A stretch of 64,000 nt of DNA. Source: Candidatus Thorarchaeota archaeon (GTDB taxonomy: Archaea; Asgardarchaeota; Thorarchaeia; Thorarchaeales; Thorarchaeaceae). The position numbers were made by a program, and so were the translations under genes. Of the stretch, positions 33,094 to 43,945 are shown piece after piece (position 1 is the stretch's first letter; each line of letters begins with the position of its first letter). The notes beneath the pieces were generated by a model that saw nothing but the letters and a program-made list of their open reading frames with translations, made no database searches and had not been told where the DNA came from. The stretch lies in assembly GCA_003345545.1 (NCBI GenBank), contig PRDH01000021.1:1-64000 (forward strand). Reading direction: 5' to 3'.

Positions 33094-33163
33094 GTTCAAG
33101 AACGGTTCCATGAAGAGTCGCATTTCCAGCAGAACAGTGCTCCATCGAGGCAGTGTTCTTAAG

Positions 33164-33171
33164 TTTAAAAT
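33164..33171 (+). promoter_or_regulatory. TATA box of membrane-tethered regulator gene
   Basis: TTTAAAAT lies about 30 bases before ATG 33198, giving a leader of only a few bases. Confidence 0.5.
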
Positions 33172-33197
33172 GCGCCCTCCGGATAGAGAGTAGCTCT

Positions 33198-33686
33198 ATG
33201 GCCGACGTCCTCAGATCGAAAAAGGGGCTTGACATCATTCTTGTCATCCTCTCCATAGCCATTTTGTCGATGGCACTCTGGACGTGGGTCACTGCACTCC
33301 CTGTCGCACAAGACGTTGTCTTCCTTGCTACAACAGTCGCACTTGTCATCTCTCTCGTTCTGATAGTGAACGTTTCAATACTTGTCATCCTCAGGCTGCA
33401 GAAACGAGTCTCTCACCTTGAGACATTGGTCATTGGATCCAGCACAGACAATGCAGCTCCTGAACGAGTTGTCGTGGTCACTCTCAACAACACAGAACGT
33501 CGTATCATCAACCAACTTGAAGAGAATGGAGGTCAGATGACACAGGATGATCTCCGAAGAGCCACAGCCCTGAGCAAGTCCACACTCAGTGTTTCCCTGA
33601 CTGCGCTCGAACGGAAGTCTCTCATAAGCAGGGCGGAGAGTGGAAGAACCAAGACTGTTGTGCTCAAGCAACGCGTTGCGAGATAG
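33198..33686 (+). CDS. Membrane-tethered winged-helix transcription regulator
   Basis: The 162-residue protein has two N-terminal membrane helices ('IILVILSIAILSMALWTWVTAL' and 'VVFLATTVALVISLVLIVNVSILVIL') and a short coiled linker. A MarR/IclR-like winged helix follows ('NNTERRIINQLEENGGQMTQDDLRRATALSKSTLSVSLTALERKSLISRAESGRTKTVVL'). Such membrane-tethered wHTH proteins are common in archaea and are thought to link surface signals to transcription. Its likely target is the surface-protein gene just downstream (33866), to which it is close and co-oriented (inference). Confidence 0.8.
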   Translation: MADVLRSKKGLDIILVILSIAILSMALWTWVTALPVAQDVVFLATTVALVISLVLIVNVSILVILRLQKRVSHLETLVIGSSTDNAAPERVVVVTLNNTERRIINQLEENGGQMTQDDLRRATALSKSTLSVSLTALERKSLISRAESGRTKTVVLKQRVAR

Positions 33687-33865
33687 CCGCTAGACATTGA
33701 TTATTGTCCTTTTGGAACGGTTCTGAACCATGATAACGCTCAAAATCAGGTTTAACACCGTCATAATCTTCTTTTACTGAATGATACGAACCGTTCACTG
33801 AAAATGGCTATTATGAAATGACATACGTGGTAAGGACAGAATCGCTAGGATTCTGGAAGATTGAC

Positions 33866-35656
33866 ATGATGACTAGAACGAGAACGCGACTTGGCACGCT
33901 CTTTCTGATCTCAAGCCTGCTCGTCATGAGCCTTGGAATCAGCACTGCAGCCGCCCCCGTTACTGAACCATATGATAGAACTCAGATTGTGAATCCATTC
34001 ACAGAGATGTTACCCGGCGTCTATGTTGCATCACAGTGGTGGAACGAGACTGGGGACTTGGATACCTCTGATACCCAGCCTGGCTACTTTGTGGAAATCA
34101 ACGGGTCCCGGTACATAGCAGAATACTATGTGGAACATATCAATGGTACTGGCTACATCATAACCGAGAATAGCATATCGAATTGGACCTCTGATTGGTC
34201 GTTCTCGAATCTTCTTGTCGTCGTAGTCCTTGATCCCGATGGATCCTATATGGCTTGGACAGCCAATCAAGGCAATGTCAGTGACCTCTGGAGTATCTTC
34301 TGGTGGCCTGAGGCAGGTGCGCTCACTGGAGATGAGGTATTCATCTACTCCTCGTTCTACTATTCCGAGTACAATTCAAGTTCATACTACTATGCTGAAT
34401 ATAGCTGGCGAAACGAGTATGGTGTGCCAGTAGATCCCAATGATGTGATTCCTTACTTAACTGAAGAATACTCATGGGCCTCTTATATGAACGGCACCTA
34501 CGAGTTCGACTATGACTGGGACTACTGCGGTTTTGGATATGATGTGAACGAGATGTTCAAAACAGAAGCTACAGAGGAGTGGATGCAGCACTACTTCTCC
34601 GGTCTGAGTGTCTTCAATGATACCAATGGCAATGGCAGAATGGATCTCGTCTATGGCGAGGTATCTTATGATTTTGATGAGAACGGGACCATCGACTGGA
34701 CCAACTACGAATTGAACCGGACCGCCTCAGAACTGGTCTACGACTTCTATGCGGACAATGCGGAGATTGGAGAGATAGGTCTTCCCTCTGTGAACTCCGA
34801 TGGTCAGATTGAGTGGAGCGCCGAGGTTGTTGATATTGATGGCAATCTGATGACATCGCAACCGTACGATGTCTGGTTCGGCGGAGTACGTCCTGTTGGT
34901 GGCATCATTGGTAATATGCCCGAAGAAACTGACCCACTGCCTGTCACCATTGACAGTCTAAAGCTCACATTCAAGTTCGAAACTACCGATGCTGCTGCAG
35001 TGATAAAGATAGACCAGTACGTTGGGGACTTCACAGATCCCGTTTCTGGGCTTGTGCCAGCTGAGCTGAATGGACTTGGTCTCACACTCAACTACTGGAG
35101 TTCCTTCTCGGGCTACACGATGACTGGTGAGATACCTGTGGAAACGCTCCCCGTGACTGGCGGTGGAGAGTCTCCAGTCACTGGGACTGACCCTGGTACT
35201 GTGACAGAATGGGTCGAAGCTCCATCAGATACTTTAGAGAGTGACAATGCTCCTGATGGATTCCTTCGATTTAGCCAGGCAAACGATCTCCGGACAATAG
35301 TTGAATTCGGAGGAACCTATGTTCTTGGTAGTGATGGACTGACCTACGATGTCGGCACTGCAGTGATGCCGATGTACTTCTACAGCTACGGATACGAATC
35401 TGGTGCAACATCCACTGACCTGGTCTATTCACTCGACTCTTTTTGGGGTCAGACATACTACTATAGTTCGTGCTACGCAAAGTGGGATGGATACTCAATA
35501 ACCCATGACCCCATCTTCTCAGTCTACCCAATTAGGTCTCCATACTCAGCAAGTGCATTCATCACTGGTCTGATTAGTTCGGCCATTATCATTGGAGTCC
35601 TTGGTGTCGCAGCCATTGTTGTTGTCTGCGTACGCATAGACGCAGAGCGGAAATAA
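33866..35656 (+). CDS. Large Tyr/Trp-rich anchored surface protein
   Basis: From ATG 33866 the 596-residue protein has a signal peptide (ends near 'ISTAAA'), a long outer region very rich in Tyr, Trp, Ser and Asp ('SSFYYSEYNSSSYYYAEYSW'), and several NxS/T sites. 'DTNGNGRMD' and 'DFDENGTID' look like two Ca-binding loops. A Thr/Gly linker, a C-terminal membrane helix ('ITGLISSAIIIGVLGVAAIVVVCV') and a short tail complete it. No enzyme motif is seen. A structural or adhesive surface protein is likely. The gene ends at a strong bidirectional terminator. Confidence 0.7.
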   Translation: MMTRTRTRLGTLFLISSLLVMSLGISTAAAPVTEPYDRTQIVNPFTEMLPGVYVASQWWNETGDLDTSDTQPGYFVEINGSRYIAEYYVEHINGTGYIITENSISNWTSDWSFSNLLVVVVLDPDGSYMAWTANQGNVSDLWSIFWWPEAGALTGDEVFIYSSFYYSEYNSSSYYYAEYSWRNEYGVPVDPNDVIPYLTEEYSWASYMNGTYEFDYDWDYCGFGYDVNEMFKTEATEEWMQHYFSGLSVFNDTNGNGRMDLVYGEVSYDFDENGTIDWTNYELNRTASELVYDFYADNAEIGEIGLPSVNSDGQIEWSAEVVDIDGNLMTSQPYDVWFGGVRPVGGIIGNMPEETDPLPVTIDSLKLTFKFETTDAAAVIKIDQYVGDFTDPVSGLVPAELNGLGLTLNYWSSFSGYTMTGEIPVETLPVTGGGESPVTGTDPGTVTEWVEAPSDTLESDNAPDGFLRFSQANDLRTIVEFGGTYVLGSDGLTYDVGTAVMPMYFYSYGYESGATSTDLVYSLDSFWGQTYYYSSCYAKWDGYSITHDPIFSVYPIRSPYSASAFITGLISSAIIIGVLGVAAIVVVCVRIDAERK

Positions 35657-36614: not shown

Positions 36615-37634
36615 TTGGATGCCGTGCCACGCCGCGTAATGTTACTTGCCATAATGCTGACAATCGTTTTGCTGTCAACGACCACTTTTGTCTCTCAGGG
36701 TTCCCCTATATCGGGCAATTCCAGTCTGGCGTCTTGGCCAGGTGGATTAGTCATCAATCATACCTGTATTGACCTCGATATGATTCCTAGTGAGTGGATA
36801 GACTCTGCTGAGGACAACATTCGTGTCCATTATGCCCATACCAGTCATGGAGGTCAGATAACCGAAGGTCTCTATCTGATTGAATCCGAGAACGCAACAT
36901 TCGATTGTTCCATAGGAGATCAAGTTCTTCCCACCGATACAGATACTCTCTGCATACTGGATGGGAATCCGCCAGAGAGCTACATCATACCTGAGTTGTA
37001 TTGGCACGAAGCAAGCGCTCGGGCTATCACTCAAAGCACAATCAACAACAACCCGACATTGACCATATCACTCTGGTCCTGGTGTACCCAAGTCGATTCG
37101 TACTCAGAGACTGAAGTTCAGGAGTATCTAGATGCCATGAGTCTTCTTGAGTCTGCAAACCCCAATATCACTTTCATCTACATGACCGGCAACGCTCAGG
37201 CGACCGGTGACGGTGGCTACAATCGATGGTTGCGGAACGAGCAGATACGGCAGTACTGTCTGGACAATGATAAGATTCTGTTCGACTTTGAAGACCTTGA
37301 CTGCTGGAGCGATGGTGTCCATAGCACCTATGACTTCGTCGTAGGTGAAGAAACCCTCAAGATTCCTGTGGAGCACCCAGACTTCAATGGCGACGAGGCA
37401 GCTCATACCACCTATACCAGCTGTGAACAGAAGGGAAAGGCCTTCTGGTGGCTCATGGCCATGCTTGCGGGCTGGAATGCTCCTGATCCGACCACGACTA
37501 CTACCACTACGGGCACATCATCGACATTCACGAATACTGGGCCACTGCTCACCGGTGATGTCCTTCTCTACACCGGTGTGGGAGGTGCCATTCTTCTTCT
37601 TGGCTATGCCATATTTCGAAGATATCGCGGTTGA
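36615..37634 (+). CDS. Secreted SGNH-like protein, membrane-anchored
   Basis: The 339-residue protein starts with TTG and has a signal peptide (residues 8-30). A catalytic-like domain follows with 'VHYAHTSHGGQITEGL', 'FIYMTGNAQATGDGGYNRWLRNEQIRQYC' and 'KILFDFEDLDCW'. These resemble a family of bacterial and archaeal secreted SGNH/GDSL-like proteins in which SHG, GNx and D-x-D blocks replace the classic motifs. A Thr-rich linker (TTTTTTTG) and a membrane helix ('VLLYTGVGGAILLLGYAIF') anchor it. An esterase or sugar-deacetylase role is inferred. Confidence 0.6.
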   Translation: MDAVPRRVMLLAIMLTIVLLSTTTFVSQGSPISGNSSLASWPGGLVINHTCIDLDMIPSEWIDSAEDNIRVHYAHTSHGGQITEGLYLIESENATFDCSIGDQVLPTDTDTLCILDGNPPESYIIPELYWHEASARAITQSTINNNPTLTISLWSWCTQVDSYSETEVQEYLDAMSLLESANPNITFIYMTGNAQATGDGGYNRWLRNEQIRQYCLDNDKILFDFEDLDCWSDGVHSTYDFVVGEETLKIPVEHPDFNGDEAAHTTYTSCEQKGKAFWWLMAMLAGWNAPDPTTTTTTTGTSSTFTNTGPLLTGDVLLYTGVGGAILLLGYAIFRRYRG

Positions 37635-38508: not shown

Positions 38509-38548
38509 GGTGAGAGGAGAGCGTTCCTCTCACCAATCCGCTTTTTTT
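38509..38548. terminator. Strong terminator between convergent genes
   Basis: GGTGAGAGGA and TCCTCTCACC form a 10-bp perfect stem around a six-base loop, followed by CTTTTTTT which reaches the stop codon of the convergent giant gene. Confidence 0.85.
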
Positions 38549-41500
38549 AACTCTCATCCTCAACAGTTTCAGAGGCACGAATCAGATCGGCCGTAAATGG
38601 GGACTCATCTGTGGTCACAAGATAATGATTCTCCAGCGCAGTCATTATCGCCTTGTAGACTCGTCCTTCCTCAAGACCACATGTTGCTATTTCCGAGGCA
38701 AGTTCTTCGAGTTTGAACTCGACCCCCTGTTTTCTGGCTATCCTCTCAAGGGCACAAGTGTTCGTTGGGAATTTCTTGGCCTCATCCAGCTTGTAGGTCC
38801 GGAGAAGTGCTCCATCAAGGATGTCCTCGAACAACGTATCAAACTGCGTCTTTGTATGCATGTCAAGAACAATAATCGGCACATCATGAAGGGTCTCATC
38901 GAAGATGAATGCAACCGTCTTTGCGAACCGAATCATCCTCTCCCGTTGTTCTGGTGAGGGATTCCCTGTTGTGATGAAAGCGCAGACCAGCCTATTCGTG
39001 GAGATTACTCTGACTATATCTGAGATTGGGATTAAGCCCCACTCCTCGGAGTCTGACTCAATATCAAACTCTCCACGGAAGCTTGTGATTGCAGTGATGA
39101 ATGCGGATATCACGGTTTCTTCAAGACCGACCCTGAGTATCTTGGAATATACCGGCAGGCCGCTCTCCTTGTGGAGGACAATCACGCCCAGCAGGCTTTT
39201 CACACCATCAAAACGTCTCTTCACTGCAAGAGCCTCTTTGTTCTCTCGAATCCGTCTTCTCCTAGCCCTTCTCCTGAATACTAGTGCAACACCAAGTACT
39301 GCGGGTAGGAACATGAACGGATAGTATCGGATTGTTGTCAGCCAGAGCATCGTCAATGCATCTCTTCCAGGCTGGAGTTGAACAGAGTATGCTGGCTCTA
39401 GGACATAATTCTCAGCATCACAGGTGATTTGCAGTAGGTATACTCCCTCTGCTGCAGGCATGGATATGACTGCGTTGTACTCTCCAGCCGTGCTTGTTGC
39501 GTCCATGGGAATAGAGTCACTCGGTGCCCCGTTTGGATCAATGATGTAGCAGAACACCTGTACTCCACTCACTGGTGAGCCTGTGCCTATTTCAGATAAT
39601 CTCACCAGGATTGTGCTTTGACTCAACTCAGGTGCGTTCAGACCCTGTAAGACTTGGACAGTAATCGGCACCCGATCGACAGTGAACATCAATCTGTACG
39701 ACGCCGTTTCAAAACCTGTCCTCTCAAAGGTCAGAACGACAAAGTGCTCCCCCAGCTCCTGGGGTGTGAGGCTCACTGAATACTGCCCAGACCCCAGTTC
39801 AAGAACGCTAATCCAGTCAGCGCCCTCACCAGACGCAAGAACACTGGCCCCTCGAATATAGCTGCTATTCGACTCGAAGATATAGCTGAAGGTGAATGTG
39901 TATGACCGGCCTACGAGGATTGCCTCAAGTGGGCTTGAGCCTTGAGCTGTTGCATCGATTCTTTCTACCTCGATAAAGAACTGCTTGGTTGCAATCCGAA
40001 AATCTGTCTTGTTTGCAACCACTGAGAGTACCCATGATCCTATTGCGTTGCCTCGTATCGAAATGATGTAGAATCCAGAGTATTCCACTATTTGTATCTG
40101 CAAGTCCATGATATCAGAAGGAAGTACAGTGATGTTCGCACCTTGAATCGCTGCAGAAGGACTCATTCGTTCATAGTATACAACCAGTTCATAGGGCTCT
40201 CCGAACGCTGCGGTTGTTGAGGTGACATCTCCCTCGAAACGCAGAGTTGTCTGAATCTCTGTCACAACAAGAGTGAATCCTGCACTCGAACTCTGATAAT
40301 TGCTGGCAGTGGCTCTGAAGAGCAAGTCAAAGGTCCTGATCTCAGCGGATTGAACTGTGACATTGTACAAACCATCACCGACTGACACAGCTCCTGATAC
40401 TGTCACACCCGAGGGTGGATTGATCAGCGCGATGCTTGCAATATCGATTGTATTGAAGCTCTCATCCTGAAACCTCAATTGCAGGGTGAAAGTCTGGTTC
40501 ATTGCGACTGTCGCACTTGATGGAAGTGACGTGAGAATCGTGGGTATTCCACTTGCGGTCAATGTAAAGGTGGCGTATTGTGTTTCATGATTGAGGATGT
40601 CTGCCCTGACGACAATCGAGAATGTTACTGCTGATGCAGGCGTCAGGATTATCTCATAGCATCCTTCAGAAACTAGCGTGAAGTTGCCATAGGAAAGACC
40701 TGCCGCTGGTGTCACAGTGAGAATCTGCAGGTTGGCTCCTGAAAGCCCATGACCTGTGCTATTCCGGTACTCCACCACAAGTCTATAGTTGTTTCCAAAT
40801 AAGACGACATCTGCAGTACCATTCAGTAATTCCAACTCACTTCCCGTTTCACCTATAATCAGTGTGAAGGAGTCTGTGGCATCGTAATGGAACGTTTTTG
40901 ATAGAGTGATAGTGACCTCATATATCTCTGAGATATTGCAGGCAACATCTAGTGAATACGATCCATTGCCATAGTCAGCAAATGATTGCCATGAAAGACC
41001 GCCTACTGGACCAGAGAATATGACTGATAATGTAGCTCCTGCCACACCACTGCCGTTCAGAAGTCTGTAGCTCAGTTGGACGCTGAATATCTCATTCAGC
41101 CCGGTCTGAACAGGAAGTGAGCCTGCATTCAGTATTTCTAATGCCGTTTGGAATACTGATACGACTATGAACTGAGTTACAACAGTGTCGAAATAGGGCA
41201 TTGATGCATTCACAACCACAATGAACTCTCCACTGCCGATCAGAGATGTATCGAAGTCAGCCTCCCACCAGTTCTTGGCATAGTTCTGCGTGAATATGAC
41301 TGCCGTAGAGGACCAATTCGCCACAATCGAAACGCTGTCATCTAACAAGTAGTTTCCTGTGTCTACATCTCTGAATGTGATTAGATTGGATATTACTTGA
41401 CCATAATCTGCCTCTATCAGGGGGTAGTTGGCCGCTACTGATGCCTGATGGTAGAGGTCAAAAAGCGCATACCCATATGCGACTTCTGTACCATTGTTCC

Positions 41501-43208
41501 AAAACACTTCTACTGTCCACTCGCCAGCAGAGGTGTTTGTCCCCGCGAATACCCATGATGAGCTATTTGCGTGCCCATTTATGATGTCAGATATCGAATC
41601 AGAGGCCCATATTGTTCCGTTGGGCATGATCCATTGTATACTGACTGGGGCTCCTGCTCCCGGAGTGACGCTCGATGTTCCTATCTCCACCTGCGTTCGA
41701 GTGATATTGCCGGTCCTGAAGAGTGAATTCTCGGTCCAATCTCCAAAGTAACCATCTTGCATCTGGATTGAGATGTCTTTGGCATAGTTGAATGCTTGAT
41801 ATGTCAATTTCCACCAGCCCACTCGGCTAAAGAGGCTATTTGGAACATAGATGCTGCCTGTCGAAATCGTGCATAGCCCCGTGATGTCATTGTTGAGCGG
41901 GTCCCAAATAGTGGCATTATCCCAATCTGAAGGATAATCAATCGATAGTGTGAGATTCTGATAGTCCGTCGAAGTCGTCACGTAGGTATACATCTCTAGG
42001 TCTGTACTCTGGCCTGCATCAGTAGTATATGATACTCCATGCATAGACAAATGGGTTGTCCATGAGGAGTTCAAATCTCGCTGGAAGTAAATCGTCATAT
42101 AGTAGTCGAAAGCCACTGAATTGTTCGCTGTGACTTCCATTTGCAGCGGGTCGACATCCCAGAGCAAGGAGTTCGAGATTGTTGAGGTGCCAACTCCACC
42201 AGTGGGCCCACTAATTGGACTCGTGAATCCTCCAACATTGAGGGTGAGACTGACACCCGCATATGATGGAGGAGTCCGGCTCGTGAACTCGACATCATCA
42301 ATATTCACTTCGATTTTCTGTGCGTTGATTAGACCGTCTGGTACACTATCATCATCATAGTCGCCATTCTCTGTAAGCACAAGATTTGCGTACTCGATGT
42401 AGATTCCAATCCCTACATCGAAGCTTACTGGAGCGCCTGTCATATTAATCGGATAATTAGTGATTGAGTACCACACACCTCTCAGATCACCAGTAGCGAT
42501 ACTCATATAGTAGGTATCAGTGTGAACATAGATTCGCAGTTCTACATCTCCGCTGAAGTCGTATGGTTCAAGATCGACTGGTCCTGAAACATATCTATAA
42601 TCAAAACTCAGACTGAACAGGTTAGTCTGTGGAGAGTTGGTGACAGTCTGCTCCCATAGTATCTCCGAATCCAAATAGTGCGTATACGTATCATCTTGGA
42701 CAGGATGTGTCTCTAGCTCCCCATAATTCACACAGGTCACATATCCATTCGTATCATTCCAGACAGCTGATTGCACCTGTGCGCCTCCGCTCGGGTCATA
42801 TGTAGAGCTGACCCACGGATCCACCTCATCATCAAAGGTTCCATTCAAAGCATAGAGCTTTCGCAGATTCGACACATCAATCTCAGTTCTGGAAGCAGCC
42901 CACCCATTTGCTTCATCGATGGTGATATTCTGTTGAGTATTCTTTCCTGTATCGGTTCTTGCTCTGACTAGACTCGTTTCTTGATAGCCTCTCTGAGTCA
43001 TTCTAATTGGGTTCAGGACTCCCTCCCGGTTTTCCTGTGAGAGTGTAAAGGCATTCTTTGTTGCCTCGTATTCTCCGTCCGTCAAGACCAAATCTGCTTC
43101 CCTGTTTCCCATAGCCGCGTTTCGGGTGTGGTTCGTCGGTGCAATTGCTAGACCCATGAGAATTGGGGCAAAAATCAAGAATGCAAGTACAATCCTTCTG
43201 GCGCGCAT
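38547..43208 (-). CDS. Giant Ig-repeat surface protein with cytoplasmic longin-like and winged-helix domains
   Basis: The 1553-residue protein starts at ATG 43208 (GAGG eight bases upstream). It has a signal peptide (residues 4-24) and an outside region of about 1250 residues: a large beta N-domain, then at least five Ig-like repeats of about 95 residues ('…GVSVGDGLYNVTVQSAEIRTF'-type ends, NxS/T rich). One membrane helix lies at about 1290-1312, then RRRARRRRIR. The cytosolic end holds a longin-like domain (about 1335-1445: 'LLGVIVLHKESGLPVYSKI', 'EETVISAFITAITSFRGEF', then strands and an amphipathic helix) and a winged-helix-like segment (about 1485-1535). Such longin-type domains are known from Asgard archaea. 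It would join an adhesin-like exterior to a trafficking-type cytosolic domain. Confidence 0.8.
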   Translation of the reverse strand: MRARRIVLAFLIFAPILMGLAIAPTNHTRNAAMGNREADLVLTDGEYEATKNAFTLSQENREGVLNPIRMTQRGYQETSLVRARTDTGKNTQQNITIDEANGWAASRTEIDVSNLRKLYALNGTFDDEVDPWVSSTYDPSGGAQVQSAVWNDTNGYVTCVNYGELETHPVQDDTYTHYLDSEILWEQTVTNSPQTNLFSLSFDYRYVSGPVDLEPYDFSGDVELRIYVHTDTYYMSIATGDLRGVWYSITNYPINMTGAPVSFDVGIGIYIEYANLVLTENGDYDDDSVPDGLINAQKIEVNIDDVEFTSRTPPSYAGVSLTLNVGGFTSPISGPTGGVGTSTISNSLLWDVDPLQMEVTANNSVAFDYYMTIYFQRDLNSSWTTHLSMHGVSYTTDAGQSTDLEMYTYVTTSTDYQNLTLSIDYPSDWDNATIWDPLNNDITGLCTISTGSIYVPNSLFSRVGWWKLTYQAFNYAKDISIQMQDGYFGDWTENSLFRTGNITRTQVEIGTSSVTPGAGAPVSIQWIMPNGTIWASDSISDIINGHANSSSWVFAGTNTSAGEWTVEVFWNNGTEVAYGYALFDLYHQASVAANYPLIEADYGQVISNLITFRDVDTGNYLLDDSVSIVANWSSTAVIFTQNYAKNWWEADFDTSLIGSGEFIVVVNASMPYFDTVVTQFIVVSVFQTALEILNAGSLPVQTGLNEIFSVQLSYRLLNGSGVAGATLSVIFSGPVGGLSWQSFADYGNGSYSLDVACNISEIYEVTITLSKTFHYDATDSFTLIIGETGSELELLNGTADVVLFGNNYRLVVEYRNSTGHGLSGANLQILTVTPAAGLSYGNFTLVSEGCYEIILTPASAVTFSIVVRADILNHETQYATFTLTASGIPTILTSLPSSATVAMNQTFTLQLRFQDESFNTIDIASIALINPPSGVTVSGAVSVGDGLYNVTVQSAEIRTFDLLFRATASNYQSSSAGFTLVVTEIQTTLRFEGDVTSTTAAFGEPYELVVYYERMSPSAAIQGANITVLPSDIMDLQIQIVEYSGFYIISIRGNAIGSWVLSVVANKTDFRIATKQFFIEVERIDATAQGSSPLEAILVGRSYTFTFSYIFESNSSYIRGASVLASGEGADWISVLELGSGQYSVSLTPQELGEHFVVLTFERTGFETASYRLMFTVDRVPITVQVLQGLNAPELSQSTILVRLSEIGTGSPVSGVQVFCYIIDPNGAPSDSIPMDATSTAGEYNAVISMPAAEGVYLLQITCDAENYVLEPAYSVQLQPGRDALTMLWLTTIRYYPFMFLPAVLGVALVFRRRARRRRIRENKEALAVKRRFDGVKSLLGVIVLHKESGLPVYSKILRVGLEETVISAFITAITSFRGEFDIESDSEEWGLIPISDIVRVISTNRLVCAFITTGNPSPEQRERMIRFAKTVAFIFDETLHDVPIIVLDMHTKTQFDTLFEDILDGALLRTYKLDEAKKFPTNTCALERIARKQGVEFKLEELASEIATCGLEEGRVYKAIMTALENHYLVTTDESPFTADLIRASETVEDES

Positions 43209-43582: not shown

Positions 43583-43945
43583 ATGACAGATAACGAAATG
43601 CTTGTAGAATTGAGAGAGATACGAAAACTACTGACTCCCCCAGCCCCACCGGCTCCACCGAAGGGACTGATCAACGAGTTCGTTGCTTTCATCTCTGCGT
43701 ACAAAGTGCTTGGGCTAGCTGTCGCGTTCATCTTGGGTATCTACATCGGTAATGTTGTTGGAGCATTGGTCAGCAGCTTCATTATGCCGCTGGTTGCCAT
43801 AGTATATCCTGCCATCAGTCCACCCGCACCAGATAATTACGTACTCTCTGGAGGTCCAATCATGGACAGCCTAATCACTTTCATCATAGTCGCATTCGTG
43901 GTCTTCATCATTGTGAAGATTGCATCAAAGCTCGGGATCAAGTAG
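43583..43945 (+). CDS. mscL: Large-conductance mechanosensitive channel MscL
   Basis: The 120-residue protein has an N-terminal cytosolic helix ('EMLVELREIRKLL') and a Pro-rich hinge (TPPAPPAPP). The MscL core follows: TM1 'VLGLAVAFILGIYIGNVVGALVSSFIMPLVAIVYP', periplasmic loop, and TM2 'SLITFIIVAFVVFIIVKIASKLG'. Gly-x-x-x-Gly packing in TM1 and the IMP and IVAFxxFxxVK blocks match MscL. It forms a homopentameric emergency valve against osmotic shock. The proline hinge before TM1 is unlike the short N-terminal helix of bacterial MscL. Confidence 0.8.
   Translation: MTDNEMLVELREIRKLLTPPAPPAPPKGLINEFVAFISAYKVLGLAVAFILGIYIGNVVGALVSSFIMPLVAIVYPAISPPAPDNYVLSGGPIMDSLITFIIVAFVVFIIVKIASKLGIK

Follow-up and report, generated by a model that had tools for sequence, protein, structure and literature searches.

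The 64,000-nt stretch analyzed here (the window) comprises positions 1 to 64,000 of contig PRDH01000021.1 (GCA_003345545.1) from a Candidatus Thorarchaeota archaeon, and our subject is a minus-strand open reading frame (38547-43208) that begins with ATG and encodes a protein of 1553 aa. Hydropathy analysis of the product predicts a signal peptide at residues 1-24 (43137-43208, minus strand, as are all features below; MRARRIVLAFLIFAPILMGLAIAP), with a maximum of 2.55 at residue 6 and a core resembling a signal peptide across residues 6-24. It also predicts a single transmembrane (TM) helix at about residues 1290-1311 (39276-39341) and then a basic stop-transfer sequence; the one clear TM segment covers residues 1293-1311, directly followed by RRRARRRR. 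Between these lie an N-terminal beta-rich region (about residues 110-320; 42249-42881), found by sequence inspection and jelly-roll- or lectin-like as judged by eye only, and seven immunoglobulin (Ig)-like repeats of ~97 aa each (residues 591-1280; 39369-41438). The cytosolic tail (residues 1312-1553, 242 residues) opens with a basic juxtamembrane helix (residues 1312-1334; 39207-39275; RRRARRRRIRENKEALAVKRRFD) that is conserved in relatives and helical in a first, low-confidence AlphaFold model. It continues with a longin domain recognized by profile comparisons (about residues 1335-1474; 38787-39206) and a helical domain, possibly a winged helix (WH) or helix-turn-helix (HTH), delineated by orthologue conservation and a weak hhalign match (about residues 1475-1535; 38604-38786). 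The predicted topology is thus a signal peptide, an Ig-repeat ectodomain, a single TM helix, and a cytosolic longin with a small helical domain, and it agrees with the first-pass annotation of the window, which had described a 1553-residue protein with a signal peptide, one membrane helix, and about 240 cytosolic residues.

Since the window tail alone gave nothing significant against Pfam or NCBIfam, its membership of the longin superfamily comes via soluble Asgard longins. To represent the tails we used 15 diverse Thorarchaeal sequences (alignment A1) and an extension of these with distant Asgard tails (A5), while soluble Asgard longins were represented by proteins matching Pfam Longin (PF13774) or Clat_adaptor_s (PF01217). 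The diverse A1 tails align with few gaps at a mean column identity of 56%, so their conservation is not due to chance. Comparison of the combined tails with the soluble longins by hhalign gave a probability of 98.65% (E 4.8e-16) over 118 collinear columns, and the reverse run gave 98.8%; controls with 12 unrelated neighbour families, the Ig repeats, and reversed columns all stayed under 1%. When columns were shuffled 150 times, 149 of the runs scored at most 18, versus 98 for the real pair, and the single high score, which covered 5 columns, was judged a numerical artefact. A hidden Markov model (HMM) of TM-anchored tails also matched soluble longins. Among them were L127, which joins a longin to an Arf-type GTPase (2.3e-13), the longin-WH protein L122 (3.5e-13), and L075/L076 (about 1e-10); L122 and L075/L076 are themselves above the Pfam cut-offs for Longin or Clat_adaptor_s. 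In the other direction, when an HMM built from soluble longins only was searched against all window frames of at least 60 aa, this tail was its sole match in the 64 kb (E 1.6e-7). The two HMM directions are not fully independent, because the broader soluble set was gathered partly with the tail HMM; a narrower soluble seed set (SL alone) recovered the majority of sibling tails, with E values between 1e-4 and 1e-8, and did not report the window protein. Landmarks of the domain are a conserved GLPVYSK hairpin and an SAFITAI..FR.EF helix.

Searched against PDB, a joint profile of tails and soluble longins (A6) matched the sigma chains of AP-2, AP-4, and AP-3 (3.5e-5 to 0.005) and MON1 (0.003) and, more weakly, delta-COP, TRAPPC1, SRX, and VAMP7, with unrelated Bcl-xL and ribosomal eL8 interspersed above E 0.04, and Pfam assigned A6 members to Longin, Clat_adaptor_s, and Fuz_longin_1. 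The PDB profile search with the tails alone found no longin and returned weak spurious matches, the best being designed helical proteins; the link from tail to eukaryotic longins is therefore transitive, since it runs through soluble Asgard longins. Two AlphaFold models of the tail, made with the window protein and one relative as sequences, had mean confidence (pLDDT) values of 43.4 and 45.6, too poor to judge the fold. They read beta-beta-alpha-beta-alpha-alpha with some strands missing, an order compatible with the beta-beta-alpha-beta-beta-beta-alpha-alpha fold of longins but not evidence for it, and a Foldseek search with the second model, whose pLDDT is too low to make the outcome meaningful, gave no significant match. 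Taken together, the profile-profile comparison, the HMM matches in both directions, and the PDB-profile matches support residues ~1335-1474 as a longin domain, bearing out the longin-like tail that had been proposed. Profile comparison disfavoured a Roadblock/LC7 identity, which was rejected: hhalign against Asgard roadblocks gave 0.4-1.8%, with the combined tails at 1.84%, and 0 of 25 roadblock loci were matched by the tail HMM at 1e-5. A longin R-SNARE was likewise rejected, the TM helix standing before the longin and no SNARE family being matched in the Pfam scan.

The first-pass annotation had also read a winged helix behind the longin. A conserved helical domain is indeed present there, residues 1475-1535 being as conserved as the longin (77-89% identity in orthologues), while its identity as a winged helix is plausible and not established: the domain aligned collinearly with the C-termini of soluble Asgard longin-WH proteins at an hhalign probability of only 11%, and it had no WH or HTH match in Pfam. 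HTH and PCI domains have been reported in Asgard longin-containing proteins (PMC10936438), and the combination of longin and winged helix therefore has precedent.

Outside the membrane, the earlier estimate of at least five Ig-like repeats was right as to the repeats and too low as to their number, since a repeat HMM finds seven. The profile was built from the window protein's own seven repeats, making their scores circular; applied to six syntenic orthologues, it detects 4-10 repeats per protein, most of them with E values between 1e-13 and 1e-27. All of the weak Pfam matches in the repeat region (DUF4402, Invasin_D3, and MG2) are Ig-like folds, and Big_1 and MG4 were matched in relatives, which suggests that the repeats are Ig-like. 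Tandem Ig-like repeats preceded by a signal peptide and held by a membrane anchor are the arrangement of an Ig-like repeat adhesin.

Across the same six orthologues, the longin is gap-free and 80-88% identical, whereas identity is 32-73% in the N-terminal region of the ectodomain, 42-77% in its middle, 54-70% in the Ig region, where length changes are large, and 12-54% in the TM helix. At the level of sequence, the tail is far more constrained than the ectodomain, a pattern that fits a receptor or adhesin with a diversifying exterior and an interior that retains a shared partner. The syntenic neighbours encode MscL, TspO-like, AlkZ-like, and methyltransferase proteins; we rejected gene neighbourhood as a guide to function, since these genes are conserved in the genus but show no functional link. 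The MscL homologue (43583-43945) is transcribed divergently from the receptor gene, has a proline-rich N-terminus, and is a conserved neighbour of the receptor in the genus. Elsewhere in the window, 33153-33686 encodes a candidate membrane-tethered regulator, a small protein whose N-terminal segments are hydrophobic and whose C-terminus is a MarR/DUF7343 winged helix, and two predicted surface proteins without a Pfam match are encoded near the receptor gene (33818-35656 and 36615-37634), each showing by eye a hydrophobic N-terminus and a C-terminal hydrophobic segment.

Fusion of a longin to an adhesin-like exterior, as first described for this locus, is real and recurs across the Asgard phylum, as seen by profile search and from the distant loci that were fetched. 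In the collection of named genomes, the only relative was from Candidatus Thorarchaeota, with a tail 64% identical. The single window tail as query had matches in 139 of 228 Asgard genomes, and profile A5 at 1e-4 matched 224 of these 228 versus 1 of 165 other archaeal genomes; 224 is not a count of genomes with the surface form, because the weaker A5 matches are soluble longins. The sole non-Asgard genome matched was G359 (E 1.4e-5), and no relatives were found in the viral contigs searched. Of the best 150 A5 matches, 122 fall within open frames at least 900 aa long, and many of the remaining frames begin at contig edges. Nearly all loci from distant matches encode one hydrophobic segment shortly N-terminal of the longin, and the distant surface-form proteins are mostly 1100-1950 aa, often with a signal peptide (L052 is without a TM helix). 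In G175, a small single-contig genome, none of the matches listed lies in a frame longer than 742 aa. Surface forms occur in many family groups (f1, f4, f8, f9, f12, f17, f19-f21, and others), and the ectodomain-TM-longin proteins constitute, by their predicted architecture, a family that recurs in many Asgard groups, often as tandem paralogues. Sampling with A5, which was built from TM forms, biases this view toward them.

A tree of 85 longin cores separated a mostly TM-anchored side, which includes the window protein, from a mostly soluble side with 95% support; it rests on 157 columns with SH-aLRT support only, the sequences being short and the branches long. Further TM-anchored lineages fall on the soluble side, including L165, the third surface longin of the window's own genome, and what the tree supports is clustering rather than one fusion event that could be dated. 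Besides the window protein, this genome encodes two ectodomain-TM-longin proteins, L165 (contig C32), which belongs to a different longin lineage, and L034:4915-8382 (C26). Eight more longin-domain matches of this genome are in shorter proteins, several of which have WH-like regions. In other Thorarchaeal genomes, surface-longin genes stand two or three in tandem (L060, L066, L067, L068, L069, and L070). Several Thorarchaeal surface longins, on both sides of the tree, end in a short, conserved F[LIV]xxVExLL motif after an acidic/proline-rich linker, e.g., FVRDVESLLRKE and FIEEVERLLREK; the motif, a candidate peptide ligand, is carried by L161, L165, L179, L180, L162, and L019, partially by L136, and is absent from the window protein. 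Two polytopic proteins (L182 and L200, from G002 and G167), with about 8-12 hydrophobic segments, carry a longin at their very C-terminal end, behind a WH-like region, which is another mode of anchoring longins to membranes in Asgard archaea.

Our favoured interpretation, to which we would give an even chance, is that the window protein is a type I receptor or adhesin with its longin tail acting as a docking platform for small GTPases or soluble longin partners. The ectodomain would contact neighbouring cells, matrix, or ligands, and the tail would dimerise or pair with another longin. At the cytosolic face it would offer a docking site to Rab-, Rag-, or Arf-like small GTPases or to longin-WH proteins that are soluble, and contact or clustering outside would recruit or regulate GTPase or cytoskeletal/membrane-remodelling machinery inside. 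Longin/roadblock dimers generally act as GTPase platforms (PMC10933270), and longin-GTPase fusions in Asgard genomes (our own search; PMC10933270, PMC4917890) suggest that longins contact GTPases in this lineage. The shorter longin-domain proteins of the same genome are potential partners of the tail, and the window protein may link surface contact to trafficking or GTPases. Weighing against this reading, no ligand-binding domain was identified in the ectodomain, no GTPase or roadblock gene is found among the conserved neighbours, and not every longin domain binds GTPases, some having other roles. A wider proposal, that ancient, Asgard-specific single-pass surface receptors pass contact to small GTPases by a tethered longin, as a pre-eukaryotic precursor of surface-to-trafficking signalling, is one we advance tentatively and with some doubt.

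The protein could instead serve passively, as an adhesin or as a stalk of the envelope, its longin merely dimerising, clustering, or anchoring it to the cytoskeleton without regulation of GTPases. Stalks built from Ig repeats are a typical feature of surface adhesins, the tandem paralogues and changes in repeat number would fit such a role, and Asgard cells bear abundant and complex surface proteins that do not form an ordered S-layer (PMC9834061). However, two cytosolic domains are conserved beyond the need of a simple anchor, the helical C-terminal domain being retained together with the longin, and we consider this explanation rather unlikely. A second alternative would make the tail a trafficking or sorting module, that is, a built-in AP-sigma-like adaptor or a contact for ESCRT or coat proteins that serves delivery, clustering in protrusions, or release. 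AP sigma chains are the closest eukaryotic structures to the joint profile, Asgard longins have been reported with Vps28-C and adaptin appendages (PMC10936438), and the F[LIV]xxVExLL ends of some Thorarchaeal paralogues could be a ligand; considering that the window protein lacks this motif and that coat subunits are not among the neighbours, we regard such a module as distinctly improbable. That the tail is another alpha/beta sensory fold related to longin (roadblock, PAS, or GAF), as sub-threshold roadblock-type matches in individual members might hint, is very hard to credit after the comparison with roadblock, the one such fold compared.

Asgard archaea are the closest relatives of eukaryotes, and the longin fold is that of clathrin-adaptor small subunits and regulated SNAREs. 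With such a domain inside the cell on surface proteins that recur across the group, contact at the surface may be connected to a primordial module of trafficking or GTPases. A widespread family that holds a longin beneath a variable surface receptor, on the inner side of the plasma membrane, supplies a location, a topology, and a set of partners that can be tested, and it bears on how the contact-driven protrusions and syntrophy of eukaryogenesis models might be coupled to intracellular machinery. The earlier observation was right and understated, there being seven repeats and a phylum-wide family.

Lokiarchaeum has been reported to encode 41 longin-like domains, a SNARE domain not being detectable and fusions to GTPases occurring in some (PMC4917890), and AP/COPI subunit homologues have also been reported (PMC10307638). 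A study of Asgard roadblocks, which includes a modelled longin, mentions longin-GTPase and longin-TRAPPC3 fusions and nowhere uses the word "transmembrane" (PMC10933270). The open literature searched, which excluded subscription papers and supplementary tables, held no description of giants with a signal peptide, Ig repeats, a TM helix, and a longin tail; the domain and the lineage are known, and the recurrent architecture is apparently undescribed. Soluble Asgard longins, including longin-Arf-type GTPase and longin-WH proteins (PMC4917890, PMC10933270), share the homologous domain, in some cases with a helical or WH domain after it, but have no signal peptide, TM helix, or ectodomain, whereas in the window a giant surface protein carries it as its tail. 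Longin R-SNAREs and plant phytolongins (VAMP7, Sec22, Ykt6; PMC2779197) likewise hold a membrane-linked longin facing the cytosol; in these, however, the longin is N-terminal, the anchor C-terminal, and an ectodomain absent, while the window protein has the reverse order and no SNARE motif. AP sigma chains, MON1, TRAPPC1, and SRX, all matched in PDB by the joint profile, belong to the longin superfamily as the window tail does, but they are subunits of cytosolic complexes and are reached solely via intermediate Asgard sequences. Finally, the Asgard Vps28-C/adaptin-appendage/longin proteins, proposed to be GTPase activators, are likewise Asgard-specific longin fusions, although they are described as ESCRT-linked multidomain proteins and not as giant surface receptors (PMC10936438).
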